Shown here in pieces: positions 17,953 through 26,755 of a DNA stretch of 64,000 nt (its first letter is position 1; each line of letters begins with the position of its first letter). The translations under genes were made by a program, and so were the position numbers. Source of the stretch: Nitrospira sp. (GTDB taxonomy: Bacteria; Nitrospirota; Nitrospiria; Nitrospirales; Nitrospiraceae); the NCBI GenBank assembly GCA_036984305.1, contig BQWY01000001.1, positions 434,001-498,000 of the forward strand, read 5' to 3'. Below the pieces are notes generated by a model. That model searched no databases. It was not told the DNA's origin and worked only from the letters and a program-made list of their open reading frames with translations.

Positions 17953-18006
17953 ATGCCTCTCGTGGTCGGCCAGGGAAATTCCAGTGAATTGATTGGAGCA
18001 CCGTCG

Positions 18007-19083
18007 ATGAACTATCCGGAGAAGGCTATCCCCAGGACCGTCTCGTTCCTGAACGAGCTACCCTATCTGACAGCGGAAATGGCGGGAATCGGTGGGGTGC
18101 TCCGCAGCCGTCCTGAAGACTTTCGTGTCTCTGAACGACCGTTGTACCTTCCCTGTGGAGAGGGAGAACATCTGTATCTGCGAATCACCAAGCGTGGGCT
18201 ATCGACAACGGACTTGGTCCTTCGCTTATCGTCCATCTTGGGAATCAAGGCTATGGGTATCGGAGTTGCCGGGCTCAAGGATAGCAATGCCGTCACGACC
18301 CAAATGGTCTCGCTCCACGGTGTGCGGCCTGATGCCGTCGGGCGCATCAGGTTGGATGACCATGTGCTGGCGGTCGAGATGCTTGGCCGACATCGCAACC
18401 GGCTCCGCACGGGCCATCATGCAGGCAATGAATTCACACTGGTCGTGCGCGGGGTTGCGCAAGAGGCCGCCGAGGTGGTCCCTGCGGTCCTGGAGGTGCT
18501 GCAAAAACGTGGCGTGCCGAATTATTTCGGCCCGCAGCGCCAGGGGCGTAAGGGCGACAATTTTCTCATCGGCGCGCAACTGCTCGTCGATCCCCAGCGA
18601 CGGGCGCGGCTCTCACGCAGCAAGCGGCAGTGGTATCTCAACGCCTACCAATCCCATCTCTTCAATCGGATTCTGGCTCGTCGGATTCAGACGATCGATC
18701 GCCTCCTCTCTGGCGAGTGGGCCGCCAAGGTTGCCAATGGCGCCTGTTTTCGTGTCGAGGAGCCGGCTGTCGAACAGCCTCGCTGTGACGCGTTCGAGGT
18801 CAGTCCCACGGCGCCGCTGTTCGGGTCTCGTACAGAGTGGGCGAACGGAGAGGCGGGAGCAATCGAAGCAGCCGCCGTGGCGGAATGTGGCGCGACACGA
18901 GACGGTCTGACAGCGGCTGCCAGGGCCTGCGGCTTTCGAGGAGAACGACGTTCTCTTCGAATCCTCATGACCAATTCCGCCTGGTCGATGTCCGATCAAA
19001 ATCTGACGATCTCCTTCGCACTTCCTCCTGGTGCGTATGCCACCAGCGTCCTTCGCGAATTCATGAAGCAGGACTCCCAGTAG
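18007..19083 (+). CDS. truD: tRNA pseudouridine(13) synthase
   Basis: TruD makes pseudouridine at position 13 of certain tRNAs. The 358-residue protein shows the TruD hallmarks: RPEDFRVSE near the N-terminus, the catalytic Asp in GLKD (Lys91-Asp92), FTLVVRG, YFGPQRQGRKGDNF and YLNAYQSHLFNRIL. The ATG at 18007 has GGAG eight bases upstream and follows the putative promoter at 17924-17952; an earlier in-frame start at 17938 was rejected. Length is typical. It is followed by the TIGR00300-like gene on the same strand after 129 bases. Confidence 0.93.
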   Translation: MNYPEKAIPRTVSFLNELPYLTAEMAGIGGVLRSRPEDFRVSERPLYLPCGEGEHLYLRITKRGLSTTDLVLRLSSILGIKAMGIGVAGLKDSNAVTTQMVSLHGVRPDAVGRIRLDDHVLAVEMLGRHRNRLRTGHHAGNEFTLVVRGVAQEAAEVVPAVLEVLQKRGVPNYFGPQRQGRKGDNFLIGAQLLVDPQRRARLSRSKRQWYLNAYQSHLFNRILARRIQTIDRLLSGEWAAKVANGACFRVEEPAVEQPRCDAFEVSPTAPLFGSRTEWANGEAGAIEAAAVAECGATRDGLTAAARACGFRGERRSLRILMTNSAWSMSDQNLTISFALPPGAYATSVLREFMKQDSQ

Positions 19084-19212: not shown

Positions 19213-20451
19213 ATGAAAGCCGAGACCGTCGTACTTCGCGGGCACATTATCGATTCGCTGATTCTAGCCAAAGTCCTGGATACTATCGTGATGATGGGCG
19301 GGACGTTCGATTTGGAGGACGTCCACATTGGTAAGACCCGGGAACAAGCCTCCAGCGTCAAGATCGCGATTTCGGCCGCTACGCCGCAGGGGCTGAGCGA
19401 CATTCTTACTGCGCTTCAACCCCATGGGGCTGTACCGGAGACCGAGCAGGATTGTTCGACCGAGGCGGCTCCGGCAGACGGTGTGTTGCCGGAGTCCTTC
19501 TACGCGACCAGCCATCTGCCGACTCAGGTGAGGGTGGGAGGACGTTGGATCGATGTCAATCGGATCGAAATGGATACCGCGATCCGCATCGATCCGAAGA
19601 CCGGTACGGCTGCGACCGTGCCCATGGCTGATGTGAAGCGGGGAGAAACCATTGTCGTAGGCCGGACAGGTGTGCGTGTGGTGCCATTGGAACGGCCGAG
19701 GGAGCGGGACGTCTTCGGATTCATGGAGGCGCAAGTATCTTCCGAACGACCGCATGCGCCGTTGATCGCCGACATCGGGCGAAGACTAAGCGCCCTTCGG
19801 TCTGGTCATGAGCGCGGGCAGGCTGGATGCAAAGTGCTCTTGGCCGGGGGCCCGGCGATTGTGCATGCCGGGGGACGGGAAGCGCTCGCGTGGTTGATCG
19901 ATGCCGGCTATATTCAGGTCCTGTTCTGTGGCAACGCGCTTGCCGCCCACGATATGGAGGCCTCGTTGTTCGGCACGTCGCTCGGCTACGGCCTAGCCGC
20001 AGGGCGAACCATGCCGCATGGACACGAGCACCATTTGCGAACGATCAATCGGATCCGTGGCATCGGAACCATCGAACGAGCGGTGACAAACGGCCTCATT
20101 ACCTCGGGGATCATGGCGGCGTGCGTCCGTCGAAACGTTCGCGTGGTCATGGCGGGCACCATTCGTGACGATGGACCTCTGCCGGGCGTGATTACCGATG
20201 CCATGGAGGCACAGGCTGCCATGCGTGCCGCGTTGCCGGATGTGGGCCTGGCGCTATTGATCGCATCGACGCTGCACGCCATCGCCACCGGCAATTTACT
20301 GCCCGGCACCGTTCCAACAGTGTGCGTGGATGTGAACCCCTCGGTTCCCACGAAGTTGGCCGACCGCGGCAGCTTCCAGGCGGTCGGTATCGTGATGGAT
20401 GCTGCCTCGTTCCTTCGAGAGCTGGCCCGAACCCTGGGGTGGACCCCATGA
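19213..20451 (+). CDS. LOR/SDH-type (TIGR00300 family) protein, probable ornithine cyclodeaminase
   Basis: A 412-residue protein matching the archaeal/bacterial TIGR00300 family, whose N-terminal region resembles the lysine-ketoglutarate reductase/saccharopine dehydrogenase (LOR/SDH) domain (VVLRGHIIDSLILAKVLD, GGTFDLEDVHIG). The Gly-rich segment KVLLAGGPAIVHAGG suggests nucleotide binding. In cyanobacterial ArgZ/AgrE this domain is the C-terminal half and converts ornithine to proline with ammonia release; methanogens have stand-alone versions. Here it is separate and encoded immediately upstream of the matching arginine dihydrolase-like gene, with a four-base ATGA overlap. AGGAG lies ten bases before the ATG. 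Function is inferred from family and neighbour. Confidence 0.78.
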   Translation: MKAETVVLRGHIIDSLILAKVLDTIVMMGGTFDLEDVHIGKTREQASSVKIAISAATPQGLSDILTALQPHGAVPETEQDCSTEAAPADGVLPESFYATSHLPTQVRVGGRWIDVNRIEMDTAIRIDPKTGTAATVPMADVKRGETIVVGRTGVRVVPLERPRERDVFGFMEAQVSSERPHAPLIADIGRRLSALRSGHERGQAGCKVLLAGGPAIVHAGGREALAWLIDAGYIQVLFCGNALAAHDMEASLFGTSLGYGLAAGRTMPHGHEHHLRTINRIRGIGTIERAVTNGLITSGIMAACVRRNVRVVMAGTIRDDGPLPGVITDAMEAQAAMRAALPDVGLALLIASTLHAIATGNLLPGTVPTVCVDVNPSVPTKLADRGSFQAVGIVMDAASFLRELARTLGWTP

Positions 20452-21248
20452 GCAGACTTCTCGTATGCCCTCCGGATTACTTTGCCATCGACTATGAGAT
20501 CAATCCGTGGATGCGACGTGGCAATGCCGTCGACCCGGCTCGAGCCACGCTCCAATGGGGCGAACTCATGCGCGTGTTCGAGCAGGAAGTGGGGGTCACC
20601 CTTGAGCGAATGATGCCGCTGCCCCGGTTGCCAGACTTGGTGTTTACGGCAAACGCGGGCATCGTGGTCGGGCGACGGGTCGTGACCAGCCGATTTCGAC
20701 ATCCGGAACGGCAGCGTGAGGAAGCCCATTTCGAGGCCTGGTTTAGGGACCATGGATACGAGGTGCATACATTGGATGCGGGCATATATTTCGAAGGTGC
20801 CGGGGATCTGCTCGGATTTTCAGAGATCTGGTTCGGTGGCTACCGACAGCGCACCGATATCAAGGCCTATCCCATCTTGGGGGCTATCTTTGGTCGGGAA
20901 ATCATCCCACTGGAGCTCATCGACAGCAGGTTTTATCACCTCGATACGTGCTTCTGTCCACTGAGCGGAGGTGAAATTCTGTATTACCCGCAGGCATTCG
21001 ACCGGTACGGGCAGGCCGTTATTGCGGATCGTATTGCTCAACGCTCGCGTATTGCCGTGTCCGAATCGGAAGCCCTGCGGTTTGCCTGCAATGCCGTGTG
21101 CGTGGGGAAGCACGTGGTCATGCCTGCAGGATGCCCCGACGCGCAGGCTCGCTTAACGGAGGCCGGCTATCGGGTGCATCCAGCCGCCCTCGATGAGTTC
21201 ATGAAGTCCGGCGGGTCGGCCAAGTGCTTGACGCTGGCGTTGGACTGA
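20448..21248 (+). CDS. Arginine dihydrolase-like enzyme of the guanidino-group modifying family (ArgZ N-domain type)
   Basis: A 266-residue amidinotransferase/dimethylargininase-fold hydrolase. It resembles the N-terminal domain of cyanobacterial ArgZ/AgrE, which converts arginine to ornithine, two ammonia and CO2. Visible active-site candidates are Asn19 in NPWM, Asn69 in FTANAG where arginine deiminases have Asp, FEGAGD (115-120), His164 and Asp166 in YHLDTC, and the nucleophile Cys260 in GGSAKC. The retained Asn favours dihydrolase over deiminase chemistry. Its ATG overlaps the stop of the LOR/SDH gene. The two products together would catabolise arginine to proline. The homologous enzymes in other bacteria are usually one fused chain. 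Confidence 0.78.
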   Translation: MSRLLVCPPDYFAIDYEINPWMRRGNAVDPARATLQWGELMRVFEQEVGVTLERMMPLPRLPDLVFTANAGIVVGRRVVTSRFRHPERQREEAHFEAWFRDHGYEVHTLDAGIYFEGAGDLLGFSEIWFGGYRQRTDIKAYPILGAIFGREIIPLELIDSRFYHLDTCFCPLSGGEILYYPQAFDRYGQAVIADRIAQRSRIAVSESEALRFACNAVCVGKHVVMPAGCPDAQARLTEAGYRVHPAALDEFMKSGGSAKCLTLALD

Positions 21249-21382: not shown

Positions 21383-21733
21383 TCATTTCCTGCGAAACAA
21401 CCACGAACTATACAACCCCCCGATAGCGATAGTCGTCGTTTCGATGGTCAGCAGCATCCGGCTGATGATGGCAGTCGGGGTTGGAGCTGACCAGAACGGA
21501 TGCAGCCCCAGAAAGGCCGGTGGATCGGTCGGAGGGGCCTCCCAGGGCGGGACTATCACCGCCAGTACCAGGAGCACCGCCATGCCGTACAAGACGGACA
21601 GATTGAGTTCACCGAGGTGATCCCGTGGGTGGGACGGCGAGGTGATGGTTAGGTCGAGAGAGCTTCCGCAGTGGGAACAGAATCGCGCGTGATCAGGTGC
21701 CGTGCGTCGGCAGACAGGACAGGTGGTTGGCAT
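21383..21733 (-). CDS. Small zinc-ribbon membrane protein
   Basis: A 116-residue protein with an N-terminal zinc ribbon (CPVCRR and CSHCGS, two CxxC knuckles 14 residues apart) and two hydrophobic helices (LNLSVLYGMAVLLVLAVIVP and IISRMLLTIETTTIAIGG). The ATG at 21733 puts the ribbon at residue 5. Function unknown; zinc-ribbon/double-helix proteins of this size are common in this group of bacteria. It follows the outer-membrane protein gene by 85 bases on the same strand. Confidence 0.65.
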   Translation of the reverse strand: MPTTCPVCRRTAPDHARFCSHCGSSLDLTITSPSHPRDHLGELNLSVLYGMAVLLVLAVIVPPWEAPPTDPPAFLGLHPFWSAPTPTAIISRMLLTIETTTIAIGGLYSSWLFRRK

Positions 21734-21818
21734 GCAGGCCCTCTGCGTGCTCCCGACTTGAAGTATAGCGCGGCAATGGAGGCGAGCCAAGGTGTGCGAC
21801 GATGTTGCGCTCCCTCCT

Positions 21819-22541
21819 CTAGAACAGGTACGCCACGCCGAAGGCAAAATGATTCATGCGGTAGTCCGCCTTGAGGCCGAACGGCTGGATGAAGTTGAGA
21901 TTCTGATCGAAATTCATCCGAGTATAGTTGTATTTCCACTCCCCGAAGACGGCGAAATGCCTCGTGACGAGGTAGCGAAGTCCTGCCATGACGTTCAAGC
22001 CGACGCTGGTGCTGGAGATGCTCTCGCCCAGTTGGGCTTCCTTTAGTCGGGCCAGGAAAATGCCTGGTCCGACCCCGACATACGGCTGGAGGCGCTTACC
22101 GGGATAACGAACCATGAAATTGATCGGCGCGATTGTCAGAACGCGCAAATAATTTCCGTCGATGGACCCGGTGACCGACCCGAACCCCGGCACGGTCAAT
22201 GTGCTCGGCTGTTGCTTGAGGTGTGGATTGGCGTTGTAGATTTCTCCTTCGATCCCGAACCATCGGATCTGCCGGAAGTAGTGTCCCACCTTTCCCCCAT
22301 ACATGATGTTGGACTTCAGCGCCAGGTCGGAAAATGTGGTTCCGGCGGGGAAGGTGCCGGTATTGTCCACGGCCTCGACATTCGTGAGACCCTTGCCGAT
22401 GGAGGGAATCGTCAAACCCAACTCACCGGCAACGTAGGATTCCGCATACGACGTGTGTACGCCAATGTGCACTGAAAGTGATGCCGCCGTGAGGTGCAGC
22501 AGGACCGTGAAGCGCCAACTTCTGAATATCTTCCAGGGCAT
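21819..22541 (-). CDS. Outer-membrane beta-barrel protein, OmpA/OprF-like
   Basis: A 240-residue exported protein: signal peptide through about residue 32 (cleavage after SYA), then alternating-hydrophobicity strands (YVAGELGLTIPSIG, GVGPGIFLARL, FAVFGEWKYNYTRM) ending in an aromatic C-terminus (GVAYLF) as required by the BAM machinery. It fits eight-stranded outer-membrane proteins of the OmpA-barrel/OMP_b-brl type, without a peptidoglycan-binding domain. Role unknown; such barrels may be structural or sensory. A candidate promoter lies about 120 bases upstream. Confidence 0.75.
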   Translation of the reverse strand: MPWKIFRSWRFTVLLHLTAASLSVHIGVHTSYAESYVAGELGLTIPSIGKGLTNVEAVDNTGTFPAGTTFSDLALKSNIMYGGKVGHYFRQIRWFGIEGEIYNANPHLKQQPSTLTVPGFGSVTGSIDGNYLRVLTIAPINFMVRYPGKRLQPYVGVGPGIFLARLKEAQLGESISSTSVGLNVMAGLRYLVTRHFAVFGEWKYNYTRMNFDQNLNFIQPFGLKADYRMNHFAFGVAYLF

Positions 22542-22832: not shown

Positions 22833-23882
22833 ATGGCCTGCATGGCGCAGCATGAACCGATGGCGAAACCTTTGCAAAATCCGATTGCTGTGGTGGGTGC
22901 CGGAGCGTGGGGGACGGCCCTGGCGCATCATCTTTCCAGAAATGGTCGCACGGTGAGACTATGGGCATACGAGACAACGGTCGTGAGTGCCATCCGATCG
23001 AGCCGTGAGAATTCGGTCTTTTTACCCGGGGTCCTCCTCCCTGCGTCCCTCGAACCCACCAACTCCTTGGGCGAGGCCCTGCGCGATGCGGACGCCGTCG
23101 TCTTTGCCGCGCCCTCGCATGTCGCGCGTGACGTGCTGGTGCAGATGCATCGGTCGAGGCCTGAACCGTGTCCGTTGATCAGTGCGACCAAGGGAATCGA
23201 GGAGGGCACGCATGAGCTCATGTCCGACGTGATCGTCGACACGTTCCTCCAGGGGCGAGCAGACTTGTGCACCGTGCTCTCTGGACCAAGCTTCGCGCTG
23301 GAGGTCGCCCAGGGCCAGCCGACAGCGGTCACGCTGGCGGGAGCGGATGCTGAGCTCGTACGGCGGATGCAGGCGGTTCTCATGAGTTCACGGTTCCGGG
23401 TCTACGGAGCCACGGACTTCATCGGCGTGCAGCTGGGCGGTGCGCTCAAGAATGTCATCGCCCTTGCCGCCGGCGCCGTCGACGGCCTTCGGCTTGGACA
23501 CAACACGAGAGCGGCGTTGATTACTAGAGGGTTGGCGGAAATGATTAGACTGGGACGAGCCATGGGGGCCGACCCGCGGACGTTTTACGGCTTGTCTGGC
23601 GTCGGAGATCTCGTGCTCACCTGCACGGGTCCGGCCAGCCGAAATCATCGAGTCGGCGTCCGTCTCGGGGAAGGGGAATCACTGGATCAGATCCTGTCCG
23701 GCATGCAGACTGTGGCGGAAGGTATCCGCACCGCCCGTGCCGCTGCGGGGTTGGCCGAACGCTATGCCGTGGACATGCCGATCGTTCGGGAAATCTGTGC
23801 GGTGCTGTTTGAAGGCAAATCGTGTCTCCGTGCCGTCGATGCGTTGATGGAGCGTGAGCCCAAAGAGGAATTGGCGCATTAA
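22833..23882 (+). CDS. gpsA: NAD(P)-dependent glycerol-3-phosphate dehydrogenase
   Basis: GpsA reduces dihydroxyacetone phosphate to sn-glycerol-3-phosphate, the first step of phospholipid synthesis. The 349-residue protein has the Rossmann motif VVGAGAWGTALA (20-31), the active-site region SATKGIE and GGALKNVIALAAG with the catalytic lysine, plus the C-terminal GVGDLVLTC. The ATG at 22833 has GAGG five bases upstream; a second ATG nine codons later (22860) starts closer to the Rossmann fold. Transcription is probably driven by the consensus promoter at 22775-22804. larB follows seven bases after the stop. Confidence 0.94.
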   Translation: MACMAQHEPMAKPLQNPIAVVGAGAWGTALAHHLSRNGRTVRLWAYETTVVSAIRSSRENSVFLPGVLLPASLEPTNSLGEALRDADAVVFAAPSHVARDVLVQMHRSRPEPCPLISATKGIEEGTHELMSDVIVDTFLQGRADLCTVLSGPSFALEVAQGQPTAVTLAGADAELVRRMQAVLMSSRFRVYGATDFIGVQLGGALKNVIALAAGAVDGLRLGHNTRAALITRGLAEMIRLGRAMGADPRTFYGLSGVGDLVLTCTGPASRNHRVGVRLGEGESLDQILSGMQTVAEGIRTARAAAGLAERYAVDMPIVREICAVLFEGKSCLRAVDALMEREPKEELAH

Positions 23883-23888
23883 CCTGTC

Positions 23889-24701
23889 ATGATTGCGAAG
23901 GGTCAAATCGAACGACTGTTGCAACATCTGCAGGACGGGACCTTGACACGCCAACAAGTGGTAGACCGGCTTCACGCTCCGGCCGCTGAGCTGTTGGGGT
24001 TTGCGACGGTCGATCATCATCGCGCGATCCGGCAGGGATTCCCGGAAGTCATTTTTTGCGAGGGCAAGACCACGGCTCAGGTCGTCGCCATTGCACGAGG
24101 CCTCGTCAGGCATAATGGAGCGGTGTTGGCCACCCGCGTGGAGCCAAAAACGGCCCGCGCGCTCCTTCGACAACATCGGCGTGCGCGCTACCATGAGACC
24201 GCGCGCGTCGTTGCCCTGGAGGCCCCCGTGCCCCGTCGCCTGGGCCACGTGTTGATCATTACCGCTGGGACGGCCGATGTGCCGATCGCGGAGGAGGCCC
24301 GCGTCACGGCGGAAACGATGGGAAGTCGCGTGGAAACGTTGTATGACGTCGGAGTGGCGGGGCTCCATCGTTTATTGAGTCAGCACGACCGGCTCGAAGC
24401 GCCGCGTGCGATCATCGTCGCCGCCGGAATGGACGGGGTGCTCCCAAGCGTCGTAGGAGGTTTGGTATCCAAGCCGGTCATCGCCGTGCCGACCAGCCGC
24501 GGATACGGGGCCAGCTTTGGAGGGTTGGCCGCGCTGTTGACGATGTTGAATTCCTGTGCTGCAGGTGTCGGAGTGATGAATATCGATAACGGCTTTGGGG
24601 CCGGCTGCCTGGCTCATCGCATCAACATCCTCGCGGAAGAAGCATACCGTGGGAGCGGCGGAGCCGCGCCAAGCAGGGGTAGGAGCCGTTCGGACAAGTA
24701 G
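23889..24701 (+). CDS. larB: Nickel-pincer cofactor biosynthesis protein LarB
   Basis: LarB carboxylates and hydrolyses nicotinic acid adenine dinucleotide in the first step of nickel-pincer nucleotide synthesis. The 270-residue protein has the family layout: a helical N-terminal part (IERLLQHLQDGTLTRQQVV), GFPEVIFCEGKT, and a PurE-like C-terminal domain with ITAGTADVPIAEEA, DVGVAGLHR and AAGMDGVLPSVVGGL. Length is normal. It follows gpsA by seven bases and shares the strand with larC, but an opposing gene lies between the two lar genes. larA and larE are not in the window. Confidence 0.9.
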   Translation: MIAKGQIERLLQHLQDGTLTRQQVVDRLHAPAAELLGFATVDHHRAIRQGFPEVIFCEGKTTAQVVAIARGLVRHNGAVLATRVEPKTARALLRQHRRARYHETARVVALEAPVPRRLGHVLIITAGTADVPIAEEARVTAETMGSRVETLYDVGVAGLHRLLSQHDRLEAPRAIIVAAGMDGVLPSVVGGLVSKPVIAVPTSRGYGASFGGLAALLTMLNSCAAGVGVMNIDNGFGAGCLAHRINILAEEAYRGSGGAAPSRGRSRSDK

Positions 24702-24746: not shown

Positions 24747-25337
24747 CTATTTGACGGCGAGCGTCCCGCGCTTGGGCCATGACACGGTCAATGCCCGAGG
24801 AGTATTGTCACCCTTGCCGATCACCTTGGCGCGCAGTTCGTAGTGGTAGGTTCCTGGTGAGACCTCTTGCTTGGTATGATCCTTTCCGTCCCAGGTCAAC
24901 GTGATGTGCACGCGTGGCGAAGGCGCCTTTCCGGCGGCGGTGCTGACGTGCTGTGCCGGACGTTCGGTCGCGCTCGCGAGCTTGAGCAAGGGTTCGATTG
25001 ACTCCCGGTACGAAAGAAAGCGCAGGCTCGATCGAGATGGTGAACTGATCAACGCGGTAACCTCCAACAGCGCGGCCCGCTCGACGTCCGGAGGCAGGTC
25101 GACCGTTACGCTGAACTCCAGGTCTCCCTGTTGCGGCACGTACGGCACCGGCTTGATGTTCACCTCGATGATTTTCAGCTGAGGTTCTTTTCTCGGGGCA
25201 GATCGGCGCTTCTTCGCCCACGCGTCGTTGTCGGTGATGAACTGAGTTCCCGGTCCGGCCGCCAAGCCGACGACGATCAGAAGGAGCATCAATCGCGGGA
25301 GAAGCCCCAGTAACCCTGAGGATCTGAGTGGGTGCAT
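24747..25337 (-). CDS. Exported hypothetical protein with Ig-like fold region
   Basis: A 196-residue protein with a signal peptide (LLPRLMLLLIVVGLAAGPG), a Lys/Arg-rich linker (KKRRSAPRKEP) and a beta-rich domain. The last ~80 residues (HITLTWDGKDHT, GTYHYELRAKVIG) resemble the FlgD-type Ig-like modules used in exported proteins. Function unknown. It sits on the minus strand between larB and larC, interrupting what is otherwise a same-strand lar pair. A TTGACA sequence on the minus strand near 25415 may belong to its promoter, but the -10 is poor. Confidence 0.6.
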   Translation of the reverse strand: MHPLRSSGLLGLLPRLMLLLIVVGLAAGPGTQFITDNDAWAKKRRSAPRKEPQLKIIEVNIKPVPYVPQQGDLEFSVTVDLPPDVERAALLEVTALISSPSRSSLRFLSYRESIEPLLKLASATERPAQHVSTAAGKAPSPRVHITLTWDGKDHTKQEVSPGTYHYELRAKVIGKGDNTPRALTVSWPKRGTLAVK

Positions 25338-25534: not shown

Positions 25535-26755
25535 ATGAGCATCCATCTCCATTTCGATTGTAGCTCAGGAGTGAGCGGCGACATGTTGTTGGGTGCCTGT
25601 GTGGATGCCGGGATTTCCATCCAGCAGATTCGCCGGTCTGCGCGGTCTCTCCATCCCGGGGGAGCGGCGGGCGTGGATGTACGAAGCCGACGCGTGAAGC
25701 GAGGCGCAATTCGAGCGATGAAGGTCGACGTCATTATTCGTCGCGGCATGCGTGCGCCCCTGTCCATGGAGCAGATCTTACGTCGTATTGCCGCGAGTAC
25801 CTTTCCCGCGGAGGTGAAGCAACGAGGGCGTGAGGTGTTTACCCGCTTGGCTCGGGCGGAAAGTCGGGCGCATGGCGTTCCAGTCCCCCGTGTACATTTT
25901 CACGAAGTGGGAGTCGTCGATTCGCTGGTCGACGTCATGGGCAGCTTGTTGTGTTGCCATCTCTTGGGCGCCACCCGGATCACGGCGTCACCGATTAACG
26001 TCGGATCCGGCATCGTGCAGACGGCGCACGGGTCTCTTTCCGTCCCTGGGCCGGCAGTGGCCATCTTAGCGGAAGGAGTTCCCATTTATTCGAACGGGCC
26101 TCGCCGCGAGCTGGCGACTCCCACGGGCGTCGCGGTGTTACGAACCGTGGCCGAGACGTTCGGCGACTTGCCGCCGATGCGTGCGAGGAGGATCGGATAC
26201 GGCGCGGGTGATGCGAATCCTGAGGGATGGGCGAACGTGCTGCGTGTCTTCGTTGGGGACGAGCTCGCACCGTACAGGATGCGGACGGAACCAATCTATG
26301 AGGTCGAAACGAATCTCGACGATCTCAATCCTCAGATCTATGACGCCGTGATCGAGCGCCTCTTCGCGGCAGGAGCGGTCGACGTCACCTTGACTCCGGT
26401 GGTGATGAAACGAGGTCGGCCCGGGGTCATACTGACCGCGCTGGCCGACCGGGCGACGGTGGGAACCGTGGCGGATGTGATCCTTCGCGATACGACGGCG
26501 CTCGGAGTCAGATATCGTGAGACCGAGCGCATCGTGCTCCCCCGGAGATTTGAATCGGTCAGCGTGCGCGGCAGCCGTGTGCAGATGAAGATTGCCGAAG
26601 CGCCGGGCGGAGAGACTCGTGCCGTGCCGGAATACACCGACTGCCGCAGGCTCGCGGAACGGCAGGGTGTTCCGGTCCGTACGGTGATGGAGGACGCGCT
26701 GATCGCGTTCTGGAGCCGTCACCGGCGGAGGCCGAGGGCAAGACGGAGTCGATGA
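25535..26755 (+). CDS. larC: Nickel-pincer cofactor biosynthesis protein LarC
   Basis: LarC inserts nickel into the pincer nucleotide in a CTP-dependent cyclometallation. The 406-residue protein carries the family hallmarks: FDCSSGVSGDMLLGA at the N-terminus, VHFHEVGVVDSLVDVMG (His-rich metal site), GPRRELATPTGVAVL, and ETNLDDLNPQIYDAVIERL in the C-terminal domain. It is encoded as one uninterrupted frame, unlike the frameshifted larC of some lactobacilli. AGGGGGG precedes the ATG. The antiporter gene follows eight bases after the stop. Confidence 0.92.
   Translation: MSIHLHFDCSSGVSGDMLLGACVDAGISIQQIRRSARSLHPGGAAGVDVRSRRVKRGAIRAMKVDVIIRRGMRAPLSMEQILRRIAASTFPAEVKQRGREVFTRLARAESRAHGVPVPRVHFHEVGVVDSLVDVMGSLLCCHLLGATRITASPINVGSGIVQTAHGSLSVPGPAVAILAEGVPIYSNGPRRELATPTGVAVLRTVAETFGDLPPMRARRIGYGAGDANPEGWANVLRVFVGDELAPYRMRTEPIYEVETNLDDLNPQIYDAVIERLFAAGAVDVTLTPVVMKRGRPGVILTALADRATVGTVADVILRDTTALGVRYRETERIVLPRRFESVSVRGSRVQMKIAEAPGGETRAVPEYTDCRRLAERQGVPVRTVMEDALIAFWSRHRRRPRARRSR

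Follow-up and report, generated by a model that had tools for sequence, protein, structure and literature searches.

A two-gene, cyclodeaminase-first counterpart of ArgZ/AgrE in Nitrospira and its nickel-pincer nucleotide gene context

The gene pair and its surroundings

The window analysed here, a stretch of 64,000 nucleotides from Nitrospira sp. (assembly GCA_036984305.1, contig BQWY01000001.1), carries two overlapping genes on the forward strand. The first codes for an ornithine cyclodeaminase (OCD) of the TIGR00300 family and the second for a predicted arginine dihydrolase-type guanidino hydrolase. The pair and its neighbours are listed below.

17998-19083, + strand: truD, a conserved neighbour, upstream of OCD in 27 loci
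19213-20451, + strand: ORF A, TIGR00300 OCD (ATG start, 412 aa)
20448-20451, + strand: start/stop overlap of OCD and hydrolase, ATGA (4 bases, read directly)
20448-21248, + strand: ORF B, predicted arginine dihydrolase-type guanidino hydrolase (ATG start at 20448, 266 aa)
21383-22541, - strand: one zinc ribbon gene and one outer-membrane beta-barrel gene, separating the pair from gpsA-larB
22833-23882, + strand: gpsA, glycerol-3-phosphate dehydrogenase (assigned by Pfam)
23889-24701, + strand: larB, nickel-pincer nucleotide (NPN) biosynthesis (NF033503, 288.9 bits, cut-off 175)
24747-25337, - strand: ORF without Pfam match, between larB and larC
25535-26755, + strand: larC (LarC1+LarC2), NPN biosynthesis (TIGR00299, 186.1 bits, cut-off 90; NF052512, 132.3 bits, cut-off 50)

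The automatic ORF list places the start of ORF B at GTG 20322; we adopted ATG 20448, where the hydrolases of homologues start. The resulting overlap suggests translational coupling of the two genes. A 4-base overlap (ATGA, or GTGA in two loci) is found in most Nitrospira loci and in some other phyla. The gpsA gene occupies the same place in Nitrospira loci, with no clear functional link to the pair. With genes on the opposite strand in between, the pair and the lar genes form a neighbourhood rather than one operon.

The OCD matches TIGR00300 over its full length (model positions 1-403 of 407) with 458.9 bits, above the curated cut-off of 410.8. Three Pfam domains (PF04455, PF21571, PF21570) are assigned, and the protein is organised as follows.

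aa 4-101: Saccharop_dh_N (N-terminal)
aa 103-185: ArgZ-like_C_1st
aa 201-404: Rossmann domain

The closest solved structures for the hydrolase are the hydrolase domains of ArgZ (Synechocystis Sll1336) and AgrE (Anabaena Alr4995), with E-values of 2e-75 to 2e-70. It matches these chains at positions 8-270 and 6-268, respectively, while the OCD matches the same chains at 288-694 and 287-690. Both parts are thus homologous to the cyanobacterial enzymes end to end, and the catalytic Asn, His, and Cys are kept. ArgZ and AgrE, however, are single chains of about 700 aa with the hydrolase at the N-terminus, whereas two separate chains are encoded here, the OCD gene being first. As there are two chains in reverse order, the pair falls outside the bifunctional ArgZ/AgrE model NF052231, which describes a fused chain with N-terminal hydrolase scoring above 1025 bits. 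The identities of the two genes, their four-base overlap, and the split and inverted order relative to ArgZ/AgrE had been proposed in a first-pass annotation and are all borne out. A stand-alone OCD chain also occurs in Methanococcus maripaludis (LOR/SDH protein, 3c2q, also TIGR00300; 42% identity over the aligned part), but the OCD described here has an adjacent hydrolase partner gene.

We consider it very likely that the pair turns arginine into proline, both reactions being predicted; an ammonia-releasing route of this kind had been expected from the outset and is supported by homology and by the residues described below. The hydrolase would remove the guanidine group from arginine by a thiol mechanism involving Cys260 and His164, yielding ornithine, CO2, and two ammonia. 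The OCD would then convert ornithine to proline, with release of a third ammonia, in a hidden redox cycle: a hydride would be taken off the alpha-carbon, cyclisation would proceed with loss of ammonia, and the hydride would be returned. For AgrE, conversion of arginine to proline, one CO2, and three NH4+ is reported, with PutA completing the route to glutamate (PMC8262935). A PutA with PutA_N, proline dehydrogenase, and aldehyde dehydrogenase domains is encoded elsewhere in the genome and would carry proline on to glutamate. The role of the pair would be arginine catabolism with recovery of nitrogen as ammonia, three per arginine. Two ProC genes in the genome speak against the pair as the sole source of proline. 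Cyanophycin was rejected as the arginine source: for cyanophycin synthetase, the genome has only partial matches to TIGR02068, all below cut-off.

Taken as a whole, a two-gene ArgZ/AgrE-type pathway, with separate chains encoded in a bicistronic unit and with NPN as the likely hydride carrier, is the probable explanation of the locus, the functions being read from the sequence.

NPN biosynthesis genes and the hydride carrier of OCD

The presence of larB and larC downstream of the pair, which bears on the mechanism of OCD, was absent from the first-pass annotation. A larE gene is located far away in the genome (276 bits). LarB, LarC, and LarE all score above cut-off, so that the NPN cofactor system is present, while no match to PF09861 (LarA) was found in the genome. 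Wherever all five genes were found (20 loci), they follow the order OCD-hydrolase-gpsA-larB-larC. In 28 of the 30 family genomes with listed positions, larC follows downstream at a distance of 3-6.1 kb and on the same strand; in the other two it sits on a different contig. In the sister family, LarC is not linked to the pair. Among the loci searched in other phyla, only one (L109) has a lar gene near the pair, with larC about 7 kb downstream. The clustering is limited to one family and may therefore reflect one event, which weakens the case for NPN.

Across the 246 genomes of the phylum that were sampled, LarC is present in 71 of the 72 with OCD and in 126 of the 174 others (Fisher 1.4e-7, with shared ancestry ignored). 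The sole OCD genome without LarC (G208) is a draft assembly with an OCD fragment only. Outside the family, LarC is found in 31/35 genomes with OCD versus 1/4 without it (Fisher p 0.014, again ignoring shared ancestry); the four with OCD and no LarC are all draft MAGs. A gut cyanobacterial relative (Gastranaerophilales, L144:9767-9988) retains only the N-terminal domain of OCD (about 74 codons) as a small ORF before the hydrolase. LarC was not found in that genome, as would be expected if the lost catalytic domain used the cofactor.

A second protein family, GSU2086 (NF052581), has a member in this genome.

G000:C1:4106753-4107667 (L167:4703-5704): GSU2086 family protein (no Pfam domain, no PDB sequence match)

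LarC is found in 179 of the 186 genomes with GSU2086 and in 18 of the 60 without (246 genomes). When OCD, LarA, or GSU2086 is present, LarC is found in 190/198 genomes; with none of the three, in 7/48. Because LarC also tracks GSU2086, its presence is not specific to OCD. GSU2086 shares a weak stretch with OCD and deoxyhypusine synthase; in the profile comparison with OCD, a probability of only 22% was obtained over 65 columns, which is at most a hint. The family is a candidate further NPN-dependent enzyme.

According to NCBIfam release 20 (June 2026), TIGR00300 is named 'ornithine cyclodeaminase, nickel-pincer nucleotide-dependent'. NPN, made by LarB, LarC, and LarE, would then be the likely carrier of the hydride, and the hidden-redox chemistry would be analogous to that of the lactate racemase LarA, which shares the larB, larC, and larE background. 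Alternatively, the pathway could be run with bound NAD+ as the hydride carrier of OCD, the lar genes serving other enzymes such as the GSU2086 family; the strong association of LarC with GSU2086 and the GSU2086 gene in this genome speak for this reading. The strongest point for NAD+ is entry 6lrg, whose title describes AgrE crystallised in a ternary complex together with ornithine and NAD+; the sequence of OCD does not decide between the two. The fold points in the same direction. The AlphaFold2 model of OCD (mean pLDDT 85) has 3c2q (Z 41.5) and ArgZ 6juy (Z 37.2) as top matches, followed by AgrE, and its C-terminal, catalytic domain has the fold of the NAD-using deoxyhypusine synthases (Z 18.2, 220 residues, 3.2 A). 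These synthases, and not LarA, are among the fold matches listed. Against NAD+ stand the clustering of lar genes with the pair in the family, the choice of NPN by the NCBIfam curators for TIGR00300, and eight genomes in which LarC occurs with OCD as its only known client, neither GSU2086 nor LarA having been found. On balance we favour NPN as the cofactor of OCD, though not strongly, and regard NAD+ as the less likely carrier. A literature search found no paper joining 'pincer' with 'cyclodeaminase'.

Assignment of the hydrolase

The top-scoring model for the hydrolase is NF052232 'arginine dihydrolase', with 291.8 bits, which is below the cut-off of 450. A fused verrucomicrobial relative, with 444 bits, likewise stays under that cut-off. 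Since the dihydrolase cut-off is missed, it might be asked whether the protein is a dimethylargininase, an arginine deiminase, or some other guanidino enzyme; there are lower-scoring matches to the dimethylargininase model NF045659 (M. tuberculosis type; 234.3 bits, cut-off 300) and weak ones to deiminase models (25.4 bits for arcA, cut-off 489). The highest scores, however, belong to the dihydrolase model and the ArgZ/AgrE structures. A placement with deiminases or another amidinotransferase group, or the lack of the dihydrolase-specific Asn, had been named beforehand as grounds for abandoning the assignment; NF052232 came out best, with deiminase models at about 25 bits, and Asn69 is present.

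Asn69, His164, and Cys260 align with the corresponding positions of ArgZ, as had been anticipated for a dihydrolase. The counterparts of N69 and C260 are Ser in entries 6juz and 6jv1, respectively. In an alignment of 83 hydrolases that spans several phyla and contains both cyanobacterial enzymes, N69, E116, H164, D166, and C260 are invariant. We take Asn at position 69 to be the mark of a dihydrolase, from what is known of ArgZ. Paralogues of DDAH type from the same order, for which DDAH is the best model (199-224 bits), have Asp at this position (FIED, versus FTAN in this hydrolase). Furthermore, the hydrolase is constantly paired with OCD, an enzyme which requires ornithine, and this argues for ornithine as its product: a dihydrolase makes ornithine, a deiminase does not. 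We thus consider a guanidino enzyme other than an arginine dihydrolase improbable.

Distribution of the pair and its biological meaning

A hydrolase match of this type is present in 82 and OCD in 72 of the 246 genomes of the phylum. In all 72 with OCD (58 in the family, 11 in another family of the order, and 3 others of the class), OCD adjoins the hydrolase upstream on the same strand; a fused gene occurs in none. The pairing is thus not due to chance. A fused gene broken apart by a frameshift or an assembly error, a reading for which nothing but the 4-base overlap speaks, is ruled out for practical purposes, as the order is opposite to that of the fused form and is the same in 72/72 genomes and in several phyla. 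A horizontal oddity of this genome is excluded by 57 other genomes of the family with the pair.

Ten genomes of the phylum have the hydrolase without detected OCD. Among them, G008, G017, G026, G035, G054, G059, G064, and G069 (about 245-254 bits; one fragment) represent one distant family. In four small genomes of the family (G105, G161, G165, G239), OCD, hydrolase, and LarA were not found, while LarC and GSU2086 are kept. In one Nitrospira MAG (L082:9918-10004), OCD is truncated to roughly its first 28 codons, which run straight into the start of the hydrolase, with larB-larC kept; this is either a deletion or an assembly error.

A collection-wide scan yielded 582 loci, the best 80 of which were inspected with organism names; this selection is biased to near relatives. 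The pairs of N. moscoviensis (L070) and N. defluvii (L072) represent essentially the same system, with proteins 71-75% identical, OCD first, the ATGA overlap, and gpsA-larB-larC downstream; the order and the 4-base overlap are found in many other Nitrospira. OCD-first pairs among these best 80 loci also come from Planctomycetes, Chloroflexi, Verrucomicrobia, Armatimonadetes, and Thermodesulfovibrionia. In these pairs the two genes range from overlapping by 29 bases to lying about 200 bases apart, with a single spacing of 1.9 kb. Many Planctomycetes have OCD elsewhere in the genome, away from the hydrolase. Only one of the best 80 of the 582 loci, from a Spartobacteria MAG (L139), is fused with the hydrolase first; it scores 1211 bits against the bifunctional ArgZ model, and both trees place it with the cyanobacterial enzymes (support 1.0).

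Split pairs with OCD first are thus standard in the family and the order and in the remaining sampled members of the class, and this is also the usual form in the sample as a whole. Hydrolase-first fusions, as judged from the trees, make up one clade in this sample, comprising cyanobacteria and one Verrucomicrobium; no reversal is therefore needed to explain the order in this genome. The order described as 'reversed' is indeed opposite to that of ArgZ/AgrE, and the arrangement is real, but its novelty, together with that of the host, had been overstated, given its regularity in the family and its occurrence in four or more further phyla.

Enzyme pairs of this kind are therefore known, and the arrangement is widespread; what is added here is the distribution of that arrangement and its cofactor context; we found no paper on this pair in Nitrospira. 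The nickel-pincer cofactor is known from racemases and epimerases. We tentatively propose that Nitrospira and their relatives keep NPN in the absence of LarA for nitrogen recovery from arginine to proline via OCD, with GSU2086 as a possible second client with a related core. LarB/C/E without LarA have been noted as a gap for Haloferax volcanii (PMC8305020), and the pair offers a testable case for their role in organisms of this kind.

A route from arginine to proline known as a fused cyanobacterial enzyme would thus mainly take a two-gene form among the other sampled bacteria, and within the Nitrospira family the pair is a core trait. The three ammonia that each arginine would yield could be assimilated and, where the host oxidises ammonia, could also enter energy metabolism.
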